64,000 nt of DNA from Streptomyces erythrochromogenes (lineage in GTDB: Bacteria > Actinomycetota > Actinomycetes > Streptomycetales > Streptomycetaceae). How positions within the stretch are numbered: position 1 is the first letter of the stretch; the number at the start of each line of letters is the position of its first letter. The stretch is taken from NCBI RefSeq assembly GCF_036170895.1, contig NZ_CP108036.1, positions 930,001-994,000 on the forward strand, read 5' to 3'. Below are positions 48,407-59,182 of the stretch, piece after piece. Under the pieces are notes generated by a model, which saw nothing but the letters and a program-made list of their open reading frames with translations, did no database searches and was not told the origin of the DNA. The translations under genes and the position numbers were made by a program.

Positions 48407-48775
48407 GTGACTGAACATGTGTGGAGTTACCAGCCGACCGCGGGCCACCTGGCCGGCACCGATCTGACCGGCTACAAGGTCGAAGCGACCGACGGCGGCA
48501 TCGGCAAGGTCGACAAGCACTCCGACGAGGTCGGTGACGCCTACCTGGTGGTCGACACCGGCGTTTGGATCTTCGGCAAGGAGGTCCTGCTGCCGGCGAG
48601 CACGGTCGTCCGGATCGACCCCGAGGAGAAGAAGGTCTTCGTGGGACGCACCAAGGAACAGATCAAGGATGCGCCCGAGTTCCACCGGGACCAGCACCTC
48701 GGCAACGCCGGGTACCGGGAGGAATTGGGCACGTACTACGGCACCGGCGCCCCCTTCGGTGGCCGCCCCGCCTGA
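48407..48775 (+). CDS. PRC-barrel domain protein
   Basis: A 122-residue protein from GTG 48407 after GAGGAG. LTGYKVEATDGGIGKVDKHS, AYLVVDTGVWIFGKEVLLPA and VRIDPEEKKVFVGRTKEQIK form the beta-barrel repeat of PRC domains, which bind partner proteins or RNA. A tail with YREELGTYYG follows. A strong hairpin ends the transcript at 48790-48833. It belongs with the stress genes around it. Confidence 0.8.
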   Translation: MTEHVWSYQPTAGHLAGTDLTGYKVEATDGGIGKVDKHSDEVGDAYLVVDTGVWIFGKEVLLPASTVVRIDPEEKKVFVGRTKEQIKDAPEFHRDQHLGNAGYREELGTYYGTGAPFGGRPA

Positions 48776-49961: not shown

Positions 49962-51989
49962 ATGGCCCTTCCGGACACTTCCCCCGAGACTTCCGACGCT
50001 CTGCAAGTCCTGCACCGCGTGTTCGGATACAGCTCCTTCCGCGGCGAGCAGCAGGAGATCATCGAGCAGGTGATCAGCGGCGGCGACGCGCTCGTGCTGA
50101 TGCCGACCGGCGGCGGCAAGTCGCTCTGCTATCAGATCCCGGCGCTGGTCAGAGAAGGCACGGGCGTCGTGATCTCGCCGTTGATCGCACTGATGCAGGA
50201 CCAGGTGAACGCGCTCAACGCGCTCGGGGTACGGGCCGGATTCCTCAACTCCACGCAGGACCCGTACGAGCGGCAGGCCGTCGAGCAGGCCTTCCTCGCC
50301 GACGAGCTGGACCTGCTGTACCTGGCCCCCGAACGGCTGCGCACCGAGAGCGCCCAGCGGCTGCTCGACCGGGGCAAGGTGTCGGTCTTCGCGATCGACG
50401 AGGCGCACTGCGTCGCCCAGTGGGGCCACGACTTCCGGCCCGACTACCTCGCCCTGTCGATGCTGCACGAGCGCTGGCCGAAGGTGCCGCGGATCGCGCT
50501 GACCGCGACGGCCACCGAGGCCACCCATGCCGAGATCGTGGCGCGGCTCGGTCTGGAGGACGCCCGGCACTTCGTCGCCAGCTTCGACCGGCCGAACATC
50601 CAGTACCGCATCGTCGGGAAGAACAACCCGCTCAAGCAGCTGCTGGAGCTGATCCGGACCGAGCACGCCGGGGACGCCGGAGTCGTCTACTGCCTCTCCC
50701 GGGCCTCGGTGGAGAAGACCGCCGCCTCCCTGGTGGAGCAGGGCATCGACGCCGTGCCGTACCACGCCGGCATGGACGCCCGGGCGCGCGCGGCGAACCA
50801 GGCGCGCTTCCTGCGGGAGGAGGGGGTCGTGGTGGTGGCGACGATCGCCTTCGGCATGGGCATCGACAAGCCGGACGTGCGTTTCGTGGCGCACCTCGAC
50901 CTCCCGAAGTCGGTCGAGGGCTACTACCAGGAGACGGGCCGCGCCGGCCGCGACGGCGAGCCGGCCACGGCGTGGCTGGCGTACGGCCTGCAGGACGTGG
51001 TCCAGCAGCGCAAGCTCATCGACGGTTCCGAGGGCGACGAAGCGCACCGCCGCTCGCTCGGGATGCACCTGGACGCCATGCTGGCGCTGTGCGAGACGGT
51101 CGAGTGCCGCCGGGTGCGGCTGCTGGCGTACTTCGGGCAGACGGGCACGGCCTGCGGCAACTGCGACACGTGTCTGACGCCGTCCGAGTCCTGGGACGGG
51201 ACGGTCGCCGCGCAGAAGCTGCTGTCGACGGTGTGGCGGCTGGCGAAGGAGCGGCGGCAGAAGTTCGGCGCCGGCCAGATCATCGACATCCTGCAGGGCA
51301 AGAAGACGGCCAAGGTCATCCAGTTCGACCACGACGCACTCTCGGTGTTCGGCGTCGGGGCGGACCTGGGCGCCGCGGAGTGGCGGGGCGTCGTGCGCCA
51401 GCTGCTGGCGCAGCGGCTGCTGGCCGTGGAGGGCGACTACGGCACGCTGGTGCTGACGGAGGACAGCGGCGAGGTGCTGGGGGGCCGCCGCAGCGTCCCG
51501 ATGCGGAAGGAGAAGGCGCCGGCCGGTCCGTCCCGCAAGGAGTCCGGGTCGCGCTCGGGGAAGGGCGCCCGCGTGCCGGTCGACCTGCCGGCCGCGGCCG
51601 AGCCGGTCTTCCTGGCCCTGCGCGCCTGGCGGGCCGAGACGGCGAAGGAGCAGGGCGTCCCGGCGTACGTCGTCTTCCACGACGCCACGCTGCGGGAGAT
51701 CGCGACGCGGCTGCCCGCCACGGTGGAGGAGCTGGGCACCATCGGTGGCGTCGGCGAGGCCAAGCTCGCCAAGTACGCCGAGGGCGTCCTGGACACCCTG
51801 GCGGGGTGCGGCACCGGTGCTCCCGGCCCCGCCTCCGCGCCCGGCGCCGAGTCCGCCGCTCCGGCTCCCTCCGGTCCGGCGCGCCCGGCGTCCGCGCCGG
51901 CGGTGCGGTCCGCGGCTCCGGAGCACGACGAGCCGCCCTTCGACCTGGACGAGATGGATCCGCCGCCCTGGGACGACGACTGGCAGTAG
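49962..51989 (+). CDS. recQ: ATP-dependent DNA helicase RecQ
   Basis: The 675-residue helicase has Walker [34 protein letters not shown] (DEAH motif), [49 protein letters not shown] and [13 protein letters not shown]. The Zn-binding cysteines are in CGNCDTC, and an HRDC domain ([20 protein letters not shown]) follows the winged helix. A Pro/Ala-rich tail ends in [13 protein letters not shown], an acidic-aromatic end that could bind SSB. It unwinds DNA in repair. Confidence 0.94.
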
Positions 51990-52020
51990 CCGTACGTCTG
52001 ATCGCAGCAGGCCCGCCGAT

Positions 52021-52052
52021 GGGGCCGGGTCGTCCACCGACGACCCGGCCCC
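52021..52052 (+). terminator. Hairpin terminator of recQ
   Basis: GGGGCCGGGTCGTC (52021-52034) pairs perfectly with 52039-52052; the loop is CACC. It starts 31 bases after the recQ stop. Confidence 0.7.
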
Positions 52053-52455
52053 TTCCGCATGCCCACCGGACGTGACGGGCCCATCACCGCCCGCGCCCTG
52101 CGGAAACCTGCACACCGTGTCCCCGATCTCGACAGGCGGCCTCTCCCGCTCACCGAAATGCCGGTTATACCCCATCCGCATTGACATGGTTCGTCCGTTT
52201 GATTCCGTGTAAGCAGTGCGCGGCCCGTATCTGTTACTCGATCTCGTGAAGAAGTCGCCACCATTCGGTGAATCAAGCTGCACGTCCGTCACCGGAGGTG
52301 ATCGCCCGCCCGTGATGGGCAGTCAACGGGATTGGTTGGGTACCCCGTTCGCGTGCTTTGATCGTGCGCATCGCAGCAATCAGGCACCGCGGTCCGGGAT
52401 TCGGGCCGCCCGCCTCCCTGCGGTGAATTCCTCCCCCCAATGAAAGGTGCGCGCC
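52053..52455. other. Promoter/leader region of the peptide-export operon
   Basis: No gene is supported in these 403 bases. The sequence drops to lower GC from about 52160 to 52260, as expected for a promoter. A TTGACA occurs at 52181-52186, but no good -10 element follows at the right distance. GGGTAC at 52338-52343 resembles a sigma-B -10 but lacks its GNNT partner. Confidence 0.45.
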
Positions 52456-52695
52456 ATGCGTAACGACATCGAGACCCGCGAGATCGACGACACCGAGCTG
52501 GACGCCGTCTCCGGCGGCATCATCAGCGTCTCCGGCGGCCTGGCCGGCGCCGTGACCAGCGATGTCAGCGGCCTCGTGGGCGTCGTGGGCTCCCTCGACA
52601 CCGTCCAGGCCGCGACGGGCATCGTCTCCCACGTCCCGGGCCTCGTCACCGGCGTCACCGGCGTTTCGGTGAACACCGGTCGCGCCGGTCTCTGA
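52456..52695 (+). CDS. Double-glycine-leader precursor peptide of an NHLM-type export system
   Basis: The 79-residue product from ATG 52456 (nine bases earlier a GTG is possible) has an acidic leader MRNDIETREIDDTELDAVSGG. The ELDAVSGG end is the classical recognition site for C39 peptidases, with Leu and Val at the usual -7 and -4 positions and GG at -2/-1. A second VSGG lies at residues 25-28, so there are two possible cuts. The core (22-79) is 58 residues: 12 Gly, 13 Val, 13 Ser+Thr, and no Cys, Lys, Met or aromatic residue. It contains the related pieces SGLVGVVG and PGLVTGVTGV. It looks like a hydrophobic, Gly-zipper-like secreted peptide. The exporter genes follow directly; no modification enzyme is encoded nearby. 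Confidence 0.85.
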   Translation: MRNDIETREIDDTELDAVSGGIISVSGGLAGAVTSDVSGLVGVVGSLDTVQAATGIVSHVPGLVTGVTGVSVNTGRAGL

Positions 52696-52745
52696 TCGGG
52701 AAATCCCGATGAACCCCGGAGCATCCCCCACGGCTCCGGGGTTCA
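52695..52745 (+). promoter_or_regulatory. Hairpins between precursor and exporter genes (probable attenuator)
   Basis: ATCGGG-AAAT-CCCGAT (52695-52710) overlaps the precursor stop. Directly after it, a perfect 13-base stem (52710-52722 with 52733-52745) encloses a C-rich loop. No U-tract follows. Such a structure would let the precursor be made in excess over its exporter, or protect its mRNA. Confidence 0.6.
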
Positions 52746-52794
52746 CGGCTGTCCCCGTGCCCCACCGATACGCATGCAGTCGAAGGAATGGTCC

Positions 52795-53601
52795 GTGCAG
52801 TTTCGCCAAAAGGCTCTTTCCAAGCTGCAATCGCCCGAAGAGCTCGATCTGCCCGTTCGCTTCGCGCGCCCGCAGGGGCGGCTCGTCCTGACCGTCACGA
52901 TCGCCGTCATGGTTGCCGCGGCCTACTGGGCGTTCACCGGCACCGTGTCGTCCAAGCTCAGCGCACCCGGCATCCTCAGCCGGGCCGAGGGCGTCTACGT
53001 CCTGCAGACCCCCGTCGCGGGACAGGTGACCGCGGTCCTCGCCGAGGAGGGCCAGTCGCTGGCCGCCGGCGCGCCCCTGCTCAACGTCCGTACGGAGCAG
53101 GGGGAACGGCCGGTGCGCGTGGTGACGGGCGGCCGCCTGACGACCCTGGTGGCCAAGGTGGGCTCGGTCGTCGCCACGGGTGCCGACGTGGCCACCGTGG
53201 AACGTGTGAAGGATCCGGAGGACCCGCTGGTGGCCGTGTTGTACGTGCCGGGCGGCAGCGGCCCGGCGATCCCCGTGGGCGCCACCGTCGACCTGAGCGT
53301 CCAGTCCGTCCCCCGGCAGCAGTTCGGCATGCTGCGCGGGCGCGTCACGGAGGTCGGCCGCGCACCCCTGACGCAGGCGCAGATCGCCGGCTTCCTCGGC
53401 GACGGCGGCCTCGCCGAACAGTTCTCCCGCCACGGCAGCCCGGTGGCCGTGGTCGTACGGCTCGAACGCTCTTCCTCCACCACGTCCGGCTACCGGTGGT
53501 CCTCCGCGGACGGTCCTCCGCACGCCGTCGACTCCGGGACGCCGGTCAGCGGCGCCGTCCACCTCGCCGCGCAGCGCCCGGTCGACTGGCTCCTGCCGTG
53601 A
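52795..53601 (+). CDS. HlyD-like membrane fusion protein, NHLM type
   Basis: The GTG at 52795 follows GAAGGAATG and gives MQFRQKALSKLQSPEELDLP, the usual opening of NHLM HlyD proteins (AL--L-SPE-LD). An ATG at 52774 would add seven residues without a good ribosome-binding site. The 268-residue protein has one membrane helix (LVLTVTIAVMVAAAYWAF, about residues 30-48). A lipoyl-like outer domain follows (GVYVLQTPVAGQVTAVLAEE, GQSLAAGAPLLNVRT). It should link the ABC exporter to the cell envelope. The stop overlaps the next start (GTGA). Confidence 0.85.
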   Translation: MQFRQKALSKLQSPEELDLPVRFARPQGRLVLTVTIAVMVAAAYWAFTGTVSSKLSAPGILSRAEGVYVLQTPVAGQVTAVLAEEGQSLAAGAPLLNVRTEQGERPVRVVTGGRLTTLVAKVGSVVATGADVATVERVKDPEDPLVAVLYVPGGSGPAIPVGATVDLSVQSVPRQQFGMLRGRVTEVGRAPLTQAQIAGFLGDGGLAEQFSRHGSPVAVVVRLERSSSTTSGYRWSSADGPPHAVDSGTPVSGAVHLAAQRPVDWLLP

Positions 53602-55880
53602 GCGCGCCGCAGACAGGGGCACCGCGCCGGGCACCGCAGCTCCCGCCCGCCGGGCGCCGGCGCCGGCGCCCCGAACCGAAGGGCGGCGCCCGCCGCAGGC
53701 CGCCGGCACCCGTCCCCAGGGGGCGGACGCCCCGGCCCGTACGCACCCCCACCGTGCTGCAGATGGAGGCGGTGGAGTGCGGCGCCGCCGCCCTGGCGAT
53801 GGTGCTCGGCCACCACGGCCGCTTCGTCCCCCTGGAAGAACTGCGCATCGCCTGCGGCGTCTCCCGCGACGGCTCCCGCGCCAGCAACCTCCTCAAGGCG
53901 GCCCGCGGGTACGGGCTGAAGGCCAAGGGCATGCAGATGGACCTGGCCGCGCTCGCCGAGGTCCGGGGCCCGGCCGTCCTGTTCTGGGAGTTCAACCACT
54001 ACGTCGTCTACGAGGGCACCGCCCGGCGGTTCGGCCGCAGGGGCGTGTACGTCAACGACCCCGGCAAGGGCCGCCGGTTCGTCCCCATGGACGAGTTCGA
54101 CACCAGCTTCACCGGTGTCGTCCTCACCTTCGAGCCCGGTGGCGGCTTCCGCCGCGGCGGCCGCAGGCCCGGCGTCCTGGGCACCATGCCGGCCCGCCTG
54201 CGGGGCACTTCGGGCACCATGGCCGCCGCCGTGGTCTCCAGCCTCCTCCTGGTCGCCGTCGGTGCGTCGGTGCCGGCGCTGAGCCGCACGTACATCGACA
54301 TGTTCCTCATCGGGCAGCAGACGTCCCTGCTGGGCGTGCTGTTCGCCTCGATGGCCGTCGCCCTCGTGCTCACCGCCACCCTCACCGCGCTGCAGCAGGC
54401 CAACCTGCTGCGCGGTCGCGTCATCTCCTCGACCCTGGGCAGTGCCCGGTTCTTCCGGCACCTGCTCAGGCTTCCGGTCGCCTTCTACGCGCAGCGCAAC
54501 CCGGCCGACCTCGTCCAGCGCCTCCAGTCCAACGACGCCGTCGCCGAGACCCTCGCCCGCGACCTGTCCGCCGCCGGCGTGGACGCCGTGGTCGTCGTCC
54601 TCTACGCGGTGCTGCTGTGGACGTACGATCCGCAGCTCACCCTCGTCGGGGTGGCCGTGGCGCTGCTCAACGTGGTCGCCCTGCGGATCGCGATCAGGCT
54701 GAGGGCCACCGGTACGCGGAAGCTGCGCGCCGAGAGCGCCCGGCTGACCAACACGTCGTACGGCGGGCTCCAGCTCATCGAGACGATGAAGGCCACGGGC
54801 GGCGAGAACGGCTTCTTCCGCCGCTGGGCCGGACAGCACGCGGTCACCCTCGACGTCCAGCAGCGGCTCGGCGTGCCCAGCGCGTGGCTGGCGATCGTCG
54901 CGCCCACGCTGGCTGCGCTCAACAGCGCCCTGATCCTGACGATCGGCGGCCTGCGGGCTGTGGAGGGCCATCTCACGGTGGGCCTGCTCGTCGCCTTCCA
55001 GGCCCTGGTCACCAGCTTCACCGCGCCGATCTCCCGGTTGGGCGGCGTCGCGGGCCGGATCCAGGACTTCGCGGCCGACGTCGCCCGCCTGGGCGACGTC
55101 GAGAACTTCCCGGTCGACCCGGTCTACGCCCGGCGCGAGCCCGCCGCCTCCACCCGGCGCCTCAAGGGGCACGTGGAGCTGGACGGCATCACCTTCGGCT
55201 ACAGCCCGCTGGATCCGCCGCTGTTGCAGGACTTCTCGCTCGCGGTCGGACCCGGTCAGCAGGTCGCGCTCGTCGGCGGCTCCGGAAGCGGCAAGTCCAC
55301 CGTCTCCCGGCTGATCTCGGGCCTGCACACCCCCTGGGCGGGGGCGGTCCGCATCGACGGGATGCGGCTGGAGGACATCCCGCGCGGCGCACTGGCCGCT
55401 TCCGTCTCCTTCGTCGACCAGGACGTCTTCCTCTTCGAAGGCACCGTCCGCGACAACGTCGCGCTGTGGGACCCCACCATCGAGGACGAGGCCGTCGTCG
55501 CCGCCCTGGAGGACGCCGCCGTCTACGAGGTGGTGGCCCGCCGCCCCGGCGGCATCCACAGCCGCGTCGAACAGGACGGCCGCAACTTCTCCGGCGGCCA
55601 GCGCCAGCGCCTGGAGATCGCGCGGGCGCTGGTGCGCCGCCCGAGCGTCATGGTTCTCGACGAGGTGACCAGCGCGCTGGACGCGGTGACCGAACAGGTC
55701 ATCATCGACAACCTGCGCCGCCGCGGCTGTGCCTGTGTGGTCATCGCCCATCGGCTGAGCACGGTGCGCGACAGCGACGAGATCGTCGTACTCGACCGGG
55801 GCACGGTCGTGGAGCGCGGCCGGCACGAACACCTGGTCGCCGCACAGGGCGCGTACGCCTTGCTGGTCAAGGAGCACTGA
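53598..55880 (+). CDS. C39 peptidase-containing ABC transporter (NHLM ABC1 type)
   Basis: The 760-residue protein from GTG 53598 cuts the leader and exports the peptide. After a basic Pro-rich start, the C39 peptidase has Cys61 in MEAVECGAAALAMVLGHHG, His134 in FWEFNHYVVYEG and Asp154 in YVNDPGKGRRF, the full triad. A six-helix exporter domain spans about 200-500. The ATPase has ALVGGSGSGKSTVSRLISG, FSGGQRQRLEIARALVRRP, VMVLDEVTSALDAV and VVIAHRLSTVRD. All parts look active. It is coupled with the fusion protein upstream, and the next gene begins one base after its stop. Confidence 0.92.
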   Translation: MSAPQTGAPRRAPQLPPAGRRRRRPEPKGGARRRPPAPVPRGRTPRPVRTPTVLQMEAVECGAAALAMVLGHHGRFVPLEELRIACGVSRDGSRASNLLKAARGYGLKAKGMQMDLAALAEVRGPAVLFWEFNHYVVYEGTARRFGRRGVYVNDPGKGRRFVPMDEFDTSFTGVVLTFEPGGGFRRGGRRPGVLGTMPARLRGTSGTMAAAVVSSLLLVAVGASVPALSRTYIDMFLIGQQTSLLGVLFASMAVALVLTATLTALQQANLLRGRVISSTLGSARFFRHLLRLPVAFYAQRNPADLVQRLQSNDAVAETLARDLSAAGVDAVVVVLYAVLLWTYDPQLTLVGVAVALLNVVALRIAIRLRATGTRKLRAESARLTNTSYGGLQLIETMKATGGENGFFRRWAGQHAVTLDVQQRLGVPSAWLAIVAPTLAALNSALILTIGGLRAVEGHLTVGLLVAFQALVTSFTAPISRLGGVAGRIQDFAADVARLGDVENFPVDPVYARREPAASTRRLKGHVELDGITFGYSPLDPPLLQDFSLAVGPGQQVALVGGSGSGKSTVSRLISGLHTPWAGAVRIDGMRLEDIPRGALAASVSFVDQDVFLFEGTVRDNVALWDPTIEDEAVVAALEDAAVYEVVARRPGGIHSRVEQDGRNFSGGQRQRLEIARALVRRPSVMVLDEVTSALDAVTEQVIIDNLRRRGCACVVIAHRLSTVRDSDEIVVLDRGTVVERGRHEHLVAAQGAYALLVKEH

Positions 55881-55881
55881 G

Positions 55882-58758
55882 GTGACACACCCGCAGCACA
55901 CCCCTGCCCCCGTCGACCCGGTCGTGGAGGCCCTGGGCACCCTGGGCAGGCCCGTCGACTGCACGGGCGTACGCAGCCTGTCCCTGGAGGGCCCGCTGGT
56001 CCTGTGGCTGGTCGTACAGGGCGAGCTGGACCTGTTCGCTGTGGACGCCGCGCAGGCAGGGCACTGGCACTTCCTGGGCCGGCTGGAGCCGGGCACGCTG
56101 CTGCTCGGTCCGGCCGAGGGCCCCGAGCACACCCTGGTCGGGCGGCCGCTGCAGGGATGCCTGCTGCGCCGCATCGAACTGCGCGAGCTGCAGCGCCCGG
56201 AGTACCCGCACCATCCGCAGTACGCGGGCGCGTTCGGCGGTGGGGCGTGGCACGCCGACGAAGGCCAGTACAGCCCCGCCGGCACCGCGGCAGGCCGGCC
56301 GAGCCCTCTGGAGGACGCCTTCGCGCGCGGCATCGGCCGGGGCTTGCGCGTGCTGTACCAGGCACCGCTGGACGGCGCGGCCACCACCGGGCACGGCGGG
56401 GCCGACGACGACATCCTGTGGATGCCGATCGCCCCGGGCAGCGTCCGGTACGGCGCCGTCTACGAGGCGGAGGCGGTGGGCACCCTCCTCGTCGACGCGG
56501 CGATGTGGCAGGGCATGGTGGACCAGCAGTACCGGCTGCTGTACGCGCTGGACGGCTGGATCGAGCAGCTGGAGCGCGACCACGAGGACCGTACGGCCGC
56601 CGGGATCGAGGCGGGCCGCGCCGCCCGTACCCAGGCGGACCGGACCCTGCTGGCGTCCATCGCCGGTTCCGGCCGGGATCCCCGGCGGGGCGGGGACGTC
56701 GACGCGACCTTCGCCGCGTGCCGGGTCGTCGCCGGCGCGGCCGGCATCGCCCTGTCCCCGCCGAACCGGGGCGGCAGCACGTCCGAGCAGCTGGATCCCG
56801 TCGAACGCGTCGCGCTCGCCTCGCGGATCCGCACCCGCCCGGTCCGGCTCGCCGGGCGCTGGTGGCGGGAGAACAGCGGCCCGCTGGTGGGCCGCCGCGA
56901 GAGGGACGGCACACCCGTCGCCCTGCTGTGGCGGCGCGGCGGCTACGAGGCGGTCGACCCCGCCGCCGGCACGCGCGAGCGCGTCGGGAGGACCAACGAG
57001 GCGGCCTTCGAACCGCGCGCCGTGATGCTGTACCGCCCCCTGCCCGACGGGCCGGTGGGCCTGCCGGCGCTGCTCCGCTTCACCGTCCGCGGCACCCTCC
57101 CCGAGCTGCGCAGCCTGCTGCTGGGCGGGCTGGTCTCGGTGGTACTGGCCGCACTGGTGCCGATCGCCACCGGCCAGGTCCTCGGCCGGTTCGTCCCGCA
57201 GGCGGAGAACGGCCTCATCGTGCAGACCGGGCTGGCCCTGATCGCGGCCGGCATCGTCGCGGCCGTCTTCATGCTGCTGCAGAACACCGCCCTCCTGCGC
57301 ATGGAGGGCCGCATCGAGGCCACCTTGCAGCCCGCGGTGTGGGACCGGCTGCTGCGGCTGCCGGCGACGTTCTTCGCGGGCCGCTCCACCGGCGAACTGG
57401 CCGGCGCGGCCATGGGCATCAGCACCATCCGCCGCGTCCTGTCAGGCATCGGCCCGGTCTGCGTGCAGGCGTGCACGGTCGGCGTGGTCAACCTGGTGCT
57501 GCTGCTCCTCTACAGCGTGCCGCTGGCGCTGGCGGCGCTGGGCATGCTGGTCGTCGTCGCGGTGGTCTTCCTGGGTCTGGGGCTGTGGCAGCTGCGCTAC
57601 GAGCGCCGGTTGAACACGCTCGGCCACCGGCTGGCCAACCAGGCCTTCCAGACCCTGCGCGGCCTGCCCAAGCTCCGCGTCGCCGCGGCCGAGAGCTTCG
57701 CGTACGCGGCCTGGGCGCGGGAGTTCGCCCGTACCCGCGACCTGCAGCAGCGCATCGGCCGGATCCAGAACGTCATCACGGTCCTCGGGGCCGTATACCT
57801 GCCGCTGTGCACCCTGGTGATGTTCGTGCTGCTGGCCGGACCGGCCCGCGGCGCCATGTCCGCGAGCGAGTTCCTCACCTTCAGCACCGCGCTGACGATG
57901 CTGCTCTCGTCGGTCACGCAGCTGACCGGGGCGCTCATCTCGGCCGCCGCGGTCCTGCCGATGTTCGAGCAGATCGAGCCGGTCCTGCGGGAGACCCCCG
58001 AGGTGGCCCGCTCCAGCACCCGGCCGGGGGAGCTGACCGGCGCCCTCGAGGCCAAGAACCTCTCCTACCGCTACGCCGACGACGGCCCGCTCGTGCTCGC
58101 CGACGTCAGCCTCCGCGTCGCACCGGGCGAGTTCGTCGCGATCGTCGGGGCCAGCGGCTGCGGCAAGTCGACGCTGCTGCGGCTGCTCATCGGCTTCGAC
58201 AGACCCGTGTCGGGCAGCGTGCTCTACGACGGCCAGGACCTGGCGGCGCTCGACCAGGCGGCCGTGCGCCGCCAGTGCGGCGTCGTCCTGCAGAACGCCC
58301 AGCCCCTCAGCGGATCGATCCTCGACTGCATCCGCGGCGCCGGGACGTTCTCGCTCGACGAGGTGTGGGAGGCCGCCGCGATGGCCGGCCTGGCGGAGGA
58401 CATCAAGGCCATGCCGATGGGCATGCACACCATCCTGTCCGACGGCGGCGGCACCGTCTCGGGCGGCCAGCGCCAACGCCTGATGATCGCCCAGGCCCTC
58501 ATCCGCACACCGCGCGTCCTCTTCCTCGACGAGGCCACGAGCGCGCTGGACAACGAGGCCCAGCGCGTGGTCATCGAATCCACCCGCGCGCTGCGGACCA
58601 CCCGTCTCGTGATCGCCCACCGCCTGTCCACGGTCATGGACGCCGACCGCGTGATCGCCATGGCTGACGGCCGCATCGTCCAACAGGGCACCCCGGCCGA
58701 ACTCCTCGCCGACCCGACGGGCCTCTTCCACACCCTGGTCCGCCGCCAACTGCACTGA
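55882..58758 (+). CDS. Second ABC transporter of the NHLM system (ABC2 type)
   Basis: The 958-residue protein starts at GTG 55882. The first 390 residues are a soluble domain of its own, without a C39 triad; this long N-terminal part marks the ABC2 family of NHLM systems. The exporter helices lie around 405-690 (LLLGGLVSVVLAALVPIATG, LALIAAGIVAAVFMLLQNTA). The ATPase has IVGASGCGKSTLLRLLIGFD (about 754), TVSGGQRQRLMIAQALIRTP, VLFLDEATSALDNEAQ and LVIAHRLSTVMD. It probably pairs with the C39 transporter as a heterodimer. The N-terminal domain may hold or check the precursor. Confidence 0.92.
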   Translation: MTHPQHTPAPVDPVVEALGTLGRPVDCTGVRSLSLEGPLVLWLVVQGELDLFAVDAAQAGHWHFLGRLEPGTLLLGPAEGPEHTLVGRPLQGCLLRRIELRELQRPEYPHHPQYAGAFGGGAWHADEGQYSPAGTAAGRPSPLEDAFARGIGRGLRVLYQAPLDGAATTGHGGADDDILWMPIAPGSVRYGAVYEAEAVGTLLVDAAMWQGMVDQQYRLLYALDGWIEQLERDHEDRTAAGIEAGRAARTQADRTLLASIAGSGRDPRRGGDVDATFAACRVVAGAAGIALSPPNRGGSTSEQLDPVERVALASRIRTRPVRLAGRWWRENSGPLVGRRERDGTPVALLWRRGGYEAVDPAAGTRERVGRTNEAAFEPRAVMLYRPLPDGPVGLPALLRFTVRGTLPELRSLLLGGLVSVVLAALVPIATGQVLGRFVPQAENGLIVQTGLALIAAGIVAAVFMLLQNTALLRMEGRIEATLQPAVWDRLLRLPATFFAGRSTGELAGAAMGISTIRRVLSGIGPVCVQACTVGVVNLVLLLLYSVPLALAALGMLVVVAVVFLGLGLWQLRYERRLNTLGHRLANQAFQTLRGLPKLRVAAAESFAYAAWAREFARTRDLQQRIGRIQNVITVLGAVYLPLCTLVMFVLLAGPARGAMSASEFLTFSTALTMLLSSVTQLTGALISAAAVLPMFEQIEPVLRETPEVARSSTRPGELTGALEAKNLSYRYADDGPLVLADVSLRVAPGEFVAIVGASGCGKSTLLRLLIGFDRPVSGSVLYDGQDLAALDQAAVRRQCGVVLQNAQPLSGSILDCIRGAGTFSLDEVWEAAAMAGLAEDIKAMPMGMHTILSDGGGTVSGGQRQRLMIAQALIRTPRVLFLDEATSALDNEAQRVVIESTRALRTTRLVIAHRLSTVMDADRVIAMADGRIVQQGTPAELLADPTGLFHTLVRRQLH

Positions 58759-58897
58759 CGGACCGGGGTCAGCGGGCGGTGGCGGACTCCGCAGCCGCGG
58801 GGTCGTGCGGGGCCGCGGTCGCCGCGGTCGAAGCGCTGCGAACAGGGCGTCGAGGTGGTGCATCCGGCCGCCGACCGAACCCGGCGAGCGGGGAGGA

Positions 58898-59182
58898 CTA
58901 CTGCGGGGCCACCCGGCAGGCGCTGACCGCGGTCCCGTTCGTGACACCGCTCGCGGTCAGACCGGTCACGCACTGTTCGTGCTCGCCGGTGAGGCCGACG
59001 TAACAAGCCATGCGGACGGAGTCCGGGGCTTCTCCGCCCTGGAGTTCGCGCTCGACCTGGTTGATGCAGGCGGTCACGTCCGCGTGGGCGGCGGGGGCGG
59101 CCAGAGCCGCGCCGCCGAGGGCGAGTGCCAGTCCGGTGAGGACTCCGGCGATACGGGTCGACGTGCGAGTTGATGTGCGCAA
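58898..59182 (-). CDS. Small secreted four-cysteine protein
   Basis: A TTG at 59180-59182 opens a 94-residue protein. It has an Arg/Thr-rich start, a hydrophobic signal core (IAGVLTGLALALGGAALAAP) and a cut near AHA-D (about residue 35). The 60-residue mature part has four Cys: VTACINQVERELQGGEAP, SVRMACYVGLTGEHEQCVTG, and SACRVAPQ. These should make two disulfides. I do not recognise the family. It faces the end of the export operon from the opposite strand, so it could be an accessory or immunity factor, or unrelated. Confidence 0.65.
   Translation of the reverse strand: MRTSTRTSTRIAGVLTGLALALGGAALAAPAAHADVTACINQVERELQGGEAPDSVRMACYVGLTGEHEQCVTGLTASGVTNGTAVSACRVAPQ

Follow-up and report, generated by a model that had tools for sequence, protein, structure and literature searches.

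What does a locus make when a small gene for a peptide with a double-glycine (GG) leader lies ahead of a complete exporter, with no modification enzyme beside it, and where does the product act? We addressed this question for such a cassette in Streptomyces erythrochromogenes, within a window of 64,000 nucleotides (assembly GCF_036170895.1, contig NZ_CP108036.1, positions 930,001 to 994,000 of the forward strand; coordinates below are counted from the first letter of the window unless stated otherwise). We lean towards the reading that the cassette delivers an unmodified GG-leader peptide, which is exported and acts on the envelope or surface of the cell that makes it. The coding features concerned are the following.

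52456-52695, + strand: precursor open reading frame (ORF), 79 aa, ATG start; leader of 21 aa and core of 58 aa
52456-52518, + strand: leader, 21 residues, MRNDIETREIDDTELDAVSGG, ending in ELDAVSGG
52519-52692, + strand: core, 58 aa
52774-53601, + strand: HlyD-like membrane-fusion protein; TIGR03794, 166 bits (cut-off 156.2)
53598-55880, + strand: ABC1, C39 peptidase/permease/ATPase of 760 aa; TIGR03796, 994.6 bits (cut-off 853.3)
55882-58758, + strand: ABC2, permease/ATPase of 958 aa; TIGR03797, 858.8 bits (cut-off 709.4)
55909-56397, + strand: CRP/cyclic-nucleotide-binding-like domain at the ABC2 N-terminus (about residues 10-172), outside TIGR03797, from fold comparison

All three exporter components exceed the cut-offs of their families and thus make up a complete NHLP-type exporter. 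The sequence-only reading of this DNA had described a 79-residue precursor whose leader ends in ELDAVSGG, followed on the same strand by a HlyD-like protein, a C39 ABC transporter and a 958-residue ABC transporter, and all of these were found again, together with the C39 triad of ABC1 (C61, H134 and D154). It had also proposed overlaps of 0-4 bases, which is correct for the HlyD-like ORF and ABC1 (4 bases) and incorrect for ABC1 and ABC2, where a 1-base gap separates stop from start. The C39 domain of ABC1 (PF03412, 114.9 bits) spans residues 50-180, and Walker A/B, signature and H-loop motifs are found in both ABC proteins. When ABC1 was searched against the PDB, the top-scoring entries were P-glycoproteins, which cover the transporter part only; residues 53-757 align, peptidase included, with the C39 exporter 4ry2 (E 7.3e-89), which we take to be PCAT1, and residues 55-757 with ComA (8hf4). 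For the N-terminal domain of ABC2, sequence searches of PDB and Pfam returned nothing useful, and the CRP family is indicated solely by the fold comparison. As tblastn alignments of HlyD-like relatives frequently open at residue 7-8 and a representative protein (from locus L172) begins MQFRQKALSK, the GTG at 52795 may be the true start of the HlyD-like gene.

The motif AAAGGTG lies at 52443-52449, ahead of the precursor ATG. In an alignment of 36 precursor sequences, T7, E9, D12, L15, D16, G20, G21 and G69 are invariant, and the leader is 20-25 residues long throughout the family except for one of 31, with start positions chosen by us. A Pfam search of the precursor gave no match, and an NCBIfam search gave sub-cut-off matches only. 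The GG motif itself is present; against the double-glycine leader model TIGR01847 the window precursor scored 13.7 bits (cut-off 15.7), and three of eight relatives scored 14.8, 13.6 and 12.4. The long-leader models TIGR03793 and TIGR03798 did not match the window precursor at E<=0.1 and, in one of the eight relatives, reached 12.0 bits (cut-off 50.9) and 12.6 bits (cut-off 32.3), both below cut-off.

The properties of the core bear on where the peptide may act. As the sequence-only reading had stated, the 58 residues of the window core include no Cys, Lys, Phe, Tyr or Trp. We also looked at 126 distinct cassette cores of 39-62 aa, whose composition is dominated by G (20.5%), V (19.8%), T and L (12.1% each) and A (10.9%), with S at 6.7%. 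Cys was absent from all of them, and Lys occurred in 3, Trp in 1, Tyr in 3 and Phe in 10; the charge balance (K+R-D-E) ranged from 0 to -5 and was never positive. Among 34 representatives (cores with <60% identity), none had Cys, one had Lys and the charge was again 0 to -5. In these representatives glycines were enriched at spacings i+3, +4, +7 and +8 (1.41, 1.58, 1.41 and 1.26 times expectation), V/I/L were enriched at i+3, +4 and +7 (1.35, 1.18 and 1.41 times), and the hydrophobic moment was above that of all 500 shuffles at angles of 100, 105, 110 and 115 degrees. Spacing and moment together suggest an amphipathic, glycine-zipper-like helix. A core that is hydrophobic, rich in Gly, Val, Thr, Leu and Ala, Cys-free, never net positive and glycine-zipper-like is therefore probably an envelope or surface peptide.

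The cassette is real and widespread, and it is probably functional. With the window precursor as a single query, 203 of 392 genomes of the genus matched at E<=1e-3, 37 of them strongly (E<6e-13, host included) and 166 weakly; an exporter adjoined the precursor in 38 of 40 fetched regions (20 from the strong group and 20 from the 166 weak matches), and the remaining two (L057 and L059) contain, by translation, GG-leader precursors without an exporter. A query made from the 36-sequence alignment matched 70 of 150 genomes of the family, in 8 of 17 genera, and 29 of at least 38 within the genus. A draw of 346 genomes from the phylum, with at most 16 candidates scored per genome, gave nine matches, all in Streptomyces (1 of 218 genera), and in a scan of named genomes the 80 listed of 102 relatives were all Streptomycetaceae except L186, a metagenome-assembled genome titled Actinomycetes bacterium. 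When the HlyD-like protein alone was used as the query, 71 of 101 genus genomes were positive, two of them weakly, and a precursor was present in all 30 loci reached in this way (the 30 best of the 71 positive genomes). The complete exporter trio was present in 142 of 160 fetched loci; of the other 18, 11 were unlinked precursors and 7 were truncated at contig ends. After deduplication 127 exporter loci were left, and each of the 127 has a GG precursor immediately upstream of the exporter; the pattern used here required the leader motif with any core composition, and the loci had mostly been found through precursor queries.

We next considered which other genes accompany the cassette. Clusters of neighbouring genes, built on predicted genes of which the gene caller misses some, recovered ABC1 (125 loci), ABC2 (119), the precursor (99) and HlyD (72) among the 127 loci. 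The sequence-only reading had proposed looking for co-conserved neighbours in other Streptomyces; beyond the cassette genes, no neighbour of at least 70 aa recurs in more than 18 of the 127 loci, so that no conserved gene for tailoring or immunity is seen to accompany the cassette. Downstream ORFs of at least 30 aa within 900 bp formed a best cluster of 8/127 loci, although very short or divergent neighbour proteins could escape clustering. The statement that no tailoring enzyme adjoins the precursor also held: no modification enzyme (LanM/LanC, YcaO) was found among the ten window neighbours that were scanned or co-conserved across the 127 loci. Elsewhere in the host genome, a search that covered LanC-like and YcaO enzymes found LanC-like genes at 6.995 and 7.930 Mb and YcaO genes at 0.876-0.888 and 7.385 Mb. 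Nearest to the precursor, about 94-107 kb upstream, are three YcaO-domain matches (G000:C1:875753-888546, in host genome coordinates), which probably form a separate azole-type cluster.

Three further features surround the precursor gene.

52232-52284, + strand: operator-like region, comprising TGTTACTCGATC at 52232-52243 (confined to a single lineage) and a 42-bp element at 52243-52284
52330-52363, + strand: promoter-like element, GATTGG at 52330-52335 and CGTGCTTTGATC at 52352-52363
52710-52745, + strand: stem-loop between the precursor and the exporter genes, with a 13-bp stem and a 10-nt loop and without a T-run

The 42-bp element has the consensus c.tGTGaAGaAg..G.c.cca..c.gTG.a.....ctgcacg. 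For 112 of 127 cassettes, a matrix of it scored at least 12 in the upstream 520 bp, a count that is descriptive because the matrix was trained on those cassettes; elsewhere it gave 3 matches in 4.7 million scanned positions, and 2 of 8640 other 500-bp blocks reached a score of 12. In the host genome the element was found at this site only, with none in the reversed control. The TGTTACTCGATC pattern had 12 sites in the host genome, this one and 11 with 3 mismatches each, versus 9 in the reversed control. In clade A, 45 regions have the promoter-like element as well as the TGTTACTCGATC block, and in 32 of them the two start exactly 120 bp from each other. Of 128 upstream regions, 108 contain CGTGCTTTGATC with no more than 2 mismatches and 118 with no more than 3, a level that about one region in ten is estimated to reach by chance; the GATTGG block often precedes it, and CGTGCTTT is exact in 59 of the 128 regions (shuffle mean 0). 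Scans for consensus sigma-70 promoters and for terminators returned 0 sites each, and the CGTGCTTTGATC element resembles a promoter that departs from the consensus. Past the precursor stop, an uninterrupted stem of at least 9 bp (G-U pairs allowed) lies within 70 nt in 97 of 127 loci versus 8 of 127 shuffles, and a T-rich tail follows it in 3 of the 97. Pair types vary across loci while pairing is kept, which is supportive only, because the stems were selected for pairing. An Rfam search over 51900-59000 gave no match. The stem-loop may raise precursor expression over that of the exporter.

Not all precursors lie beside an exporter. The alignment search returned 22 second precursor matches in 17 genomes, 20 away from any exporter and two beside another precursor (L091 and L092); the 20, with L057 and L059, give 22 unlinked precursors with the same leader. 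These had been left out of the training of the 42-bp matrix, and 11 of the 22 have the element upstream with a score of at least 12, versus the 2 of 8640 background blocks. Scores were 21.5-38.8 for L103, L195 (whose contig is also that of L281), L283, L120, L287, L280, L096, L114 and L098, and marginal for L112 (14.2) and L104 (12.2); L057, L059, L106, L276, L277, L278, L279, L282, L284, L285 and L286 stayed below 12. A sub-type with GYG..V.VGDVVG and with VQTT near the end (e.g. L282, L284, L057 and L059) is mostly without the operator. Each of the 15 genomes that hold the 20 unlinked precursors from the alignment search has exactly one TIGR03797 match at E<=1e-150 (7/7 and 8/8). None of the 20 cores is net positive, and one contains Lys. 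Since the leader is common to all and, in half of the cases, the operator too, the peptides probably share one exporter, so that the unlinked precursors would probably be exported in trans.

These observations are consistent with the following mechanism. The conserved leader would dock on the C39 domain of ABC1, which would cleave past Gly20-Gly21, and ABC1, ABC2 and the HlyD-like protein would export the 58-residue core. The core would probably insert in or coat the producer's envelope or hyphal surface and not kill other cells. The 42-bp element would be the binding site of a regulator, for which Sco5283 of S. coelicolor is the candidate, with GTGAAG and GGTGAA as the blocks of interest in the element. 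The stem-loop past the precursor may permit an excess of precursor over exporter, and in some relatives a single exporter probably serves unlinked same-leader precursors as well, half of them with the operator.

Several points weigh against this reading. That the core reaches the outside of the cell is itself predicted from gene content and motifs. The hydrophobic moment peaks at 110 and not at 100 degrees, and lesser excesses occur at 130 and 170 degrees (1 and 6 shuffles out of 500, respectively, reach these). AlphaFold models the precursor with low confidence (helix 12-58, mean predicted local distance difference test score, pLDDT, 53.4), too weakly to confirm the helix. The ratio of nonsynonymous to synonymous substitution (dN/dS) is 0.25 for the leader and 0.56 for the core, both <1 and taken from 254 non-independent pairs; the core thus appears looser and faster evolving than the leader, as bacteriocin cores can be. 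The core has many Ser and Thr residues, so a modifying enzyme encoded at a distance has to be allowed for. Half of the unlinked precursors (11/22) are without the operator, and 2 of the 20 unlinked cores contain Cys (L277 and L278; AVCADLGAFVS and EVCADADAFVS). Finally, in the S. coelicolor system discussed below, the dispersed morphology was not tied to the peptide gene sco0753 itself, as far as the account in PMC6629963 that covers this operon goes.

The main rival is a class II-type unmodified bacteriocin that permeabilises competing actinomycetes, the producer being protected by the exporter or by an unlinked immunity gene. We consider this possible but distinctly less likely than the envelope reading. 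Class II bacteriocins (TIGR01847) with PCAT1/ComA-type exporters share with our cassette the leader type and a C39 processing-export ABC protein that adjoins the precursor; the GxxxG-like glycine spacing of the core resembles that of two-peptide bacteriocins, the core evolves faster than the leader, and two precursors are adjacent in L091 and L224. They differ from it in the second ABC protein with its CRP-like domain, the neutral-to-anionic core and the lack of a conserved immunity gene at either size limit given above. TIGR01847 stays below cut-off, and the presence of HlyD in most genomes of the genus is more like a common trait. The CTB family bacteriocins (NF038167) have a short GG leader and a small core; the window precursor did not match their model, and the best of the eight relatives reached 16 bits against a cut-off of 32. 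The antimicrobial role suggested by the sequence-only reading is therefore weakened by the neutral-to-anionic cores and the absence of an immunity gene conserved beside them, and a bacteriocin is still the chief competitor of the envelope peptide.

A secreted signal sensed by hyphae of the same species appears unlikely. ComC/ComA combines a GG leader with a C39 exporter, ABC1 aligns with ComA over nearly its whole length, and relatives of the precursor show a weak similarity to the peptide pheromone VP1 model (best 18.7 bits among the eight tested, cut-off 85); against this, no receptor, kinase or regulator is co-conserved beside the cassette, the core is a long, low-complexity sequence, and the >60-fold overexpression reported for the S. 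coelicolor gene once it is switched on fits a structural product equally well (PMC6629963). Least probable of all is a ribosomally synthesized and post-translationally modified peptide (RiPP) with residues modified by an enzyme encoded elsewhere: the host has LanC-like and YcaO genes, the cores are rich in Thr and Ser, relatives resemble the RiPP precursor TigB below cut-off (best 16.6 bits of the eight tested, cut-off 70), perhaps through composition, and NHLP/N11P precursors can sit far from their enzymes (PMC2887384), but Cys is missing from all 126 distinct cassette cores, no enzyme is co-conserved across the 127 loci and, in a genome-wide search for LanC-like and YcaO enzymes, even the closest YcaO matches stop about 94 kb short of the precursor.

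The envelope reading also has to be set against what has been described. The sequence-only reading had raised the prospect of a new class, which does not hold, because S. coelicolor sco0753-sco0756, a close counterpart as judged from its description, was reported in 2019 with the same gene order and a Cys-less peptide (Arroyo-Perez et al, 2019; PMC6629963). In that description the 77-aa Sco0753, a small and hydrophobic protein without Cys that is conserved in many Streptomyces, lies ahead of sco0754-0756, which encode a HlyD homologue and two ABC transporters. With an activating Sco5282 allele sco0753 was overexpressed >60-fold (6.3 log2 units, compared with 4.25-4.4 for sco0754-0756), and sco0753-0756 were almost silent in a Sco5282 null mutant; the Sco5282 system influences envelope genes as well as the morphology of pellets (PMC6629963). 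That study, like ours, proposed export and a role at the surface; it termed the peptide lantibiotic-like, which differs from our reading. The parts of PMC6629963 that deal with the operon mention neither an operator nor unlinked precursors, and they give no charge pattern and no census of the family. Single genes of the counterpart are mentioned in PMC5733086, PMC5882110 and PMC6414726, and expression studies (PMC5733086, PMC6414726) label them 'bacteriocin' in passages that show no function; a characterised product was not found in the portions of the literature that treat this counterpart. What the present analysis adds is the 42-bp operator-like element, the 22 unlinked precursors, the stem-loop after the precursor, the helical glycine spacing and the CRP-like domain on ABC2.

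The exporter type was defined by Haft in 2010, with a distribution wider than that of NHLP (PMC2887384). NHLP/N11P systems share with our cassette the TIGR03794/03796/03797 exporter, the GG cleavage motif and, in some genomes, precursors unlinked to the exporter; they differ in the average GG position, 83 for NHLP and 70 for N11P (PMC2887384) versus a leader of 20-25 here, whereas our cassette has no modification enzyme and a core without Cys. A role at the hyphal surface has also been proposed for SapB and other lanthipeptide morphogens of Streptomyces, from which our cassette differs by the absence of Cys and of an adjoining lanthionine synthetase.

The core composition, the shared operator and the absence of co-conserved genes for immunity or tailoring set a testable alternative beside the 'bacteriocin' label: most Streptomyces would make an envelope peptide that they export. 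The leader provides a simple handle for finding further unlinked candidate substrates of one exporter. More speculatively, the cassette could be the hub of a dispersed secretion system of Streptomycetaceae, in which one NHLP-type exporter per genome would handle anionic, unmodified, glycine-zipper-like peptides with a shared leader in trans, part of them co-switched through the 42-bp operator by a two-component system that senses the envelope; the product would then be a new envelope or surface component and not an antibiotic, and the CRP-like domain of ABC2 would gate export by a ligand. We put this forward tentatively, as a picture that may well prove wrong.

Around the cassette, the window neighbours that have a family are catalase, PPK2, RecQ, 5'-nucleotidase, periplasmic-binding-like (LacI-type) protein, DUF6221, TsaD, NIPSNAP protein, DEAD helicase and alpha/beta hydrolase; the ORF at 48407-48772, one of the ten neighbours scanned, had no family. 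Small + strand ORFs upstream of the precursor, found in 91, 47 and 43 loci, were rejected as genes, since many frames match, and were read as conservation of control-region DNA. As to the exporter, TIGR03797 was above cut-off in 8 of 198 phylum-draw genomes, namely seven of eight from the same genus and one distant actinobacterium (G616, locus L138; ~2.5 Mb), and the same-genus genome without it (G056) was also without precursor and HlyD. Two precursors lie near each other at one locus in L091, L092 and L224, and the core of one unlinked precursor (L103:9905-10126) opens, unlike the rest, with a His-rich stretch, HHHAIHRLAHAIHHVE.

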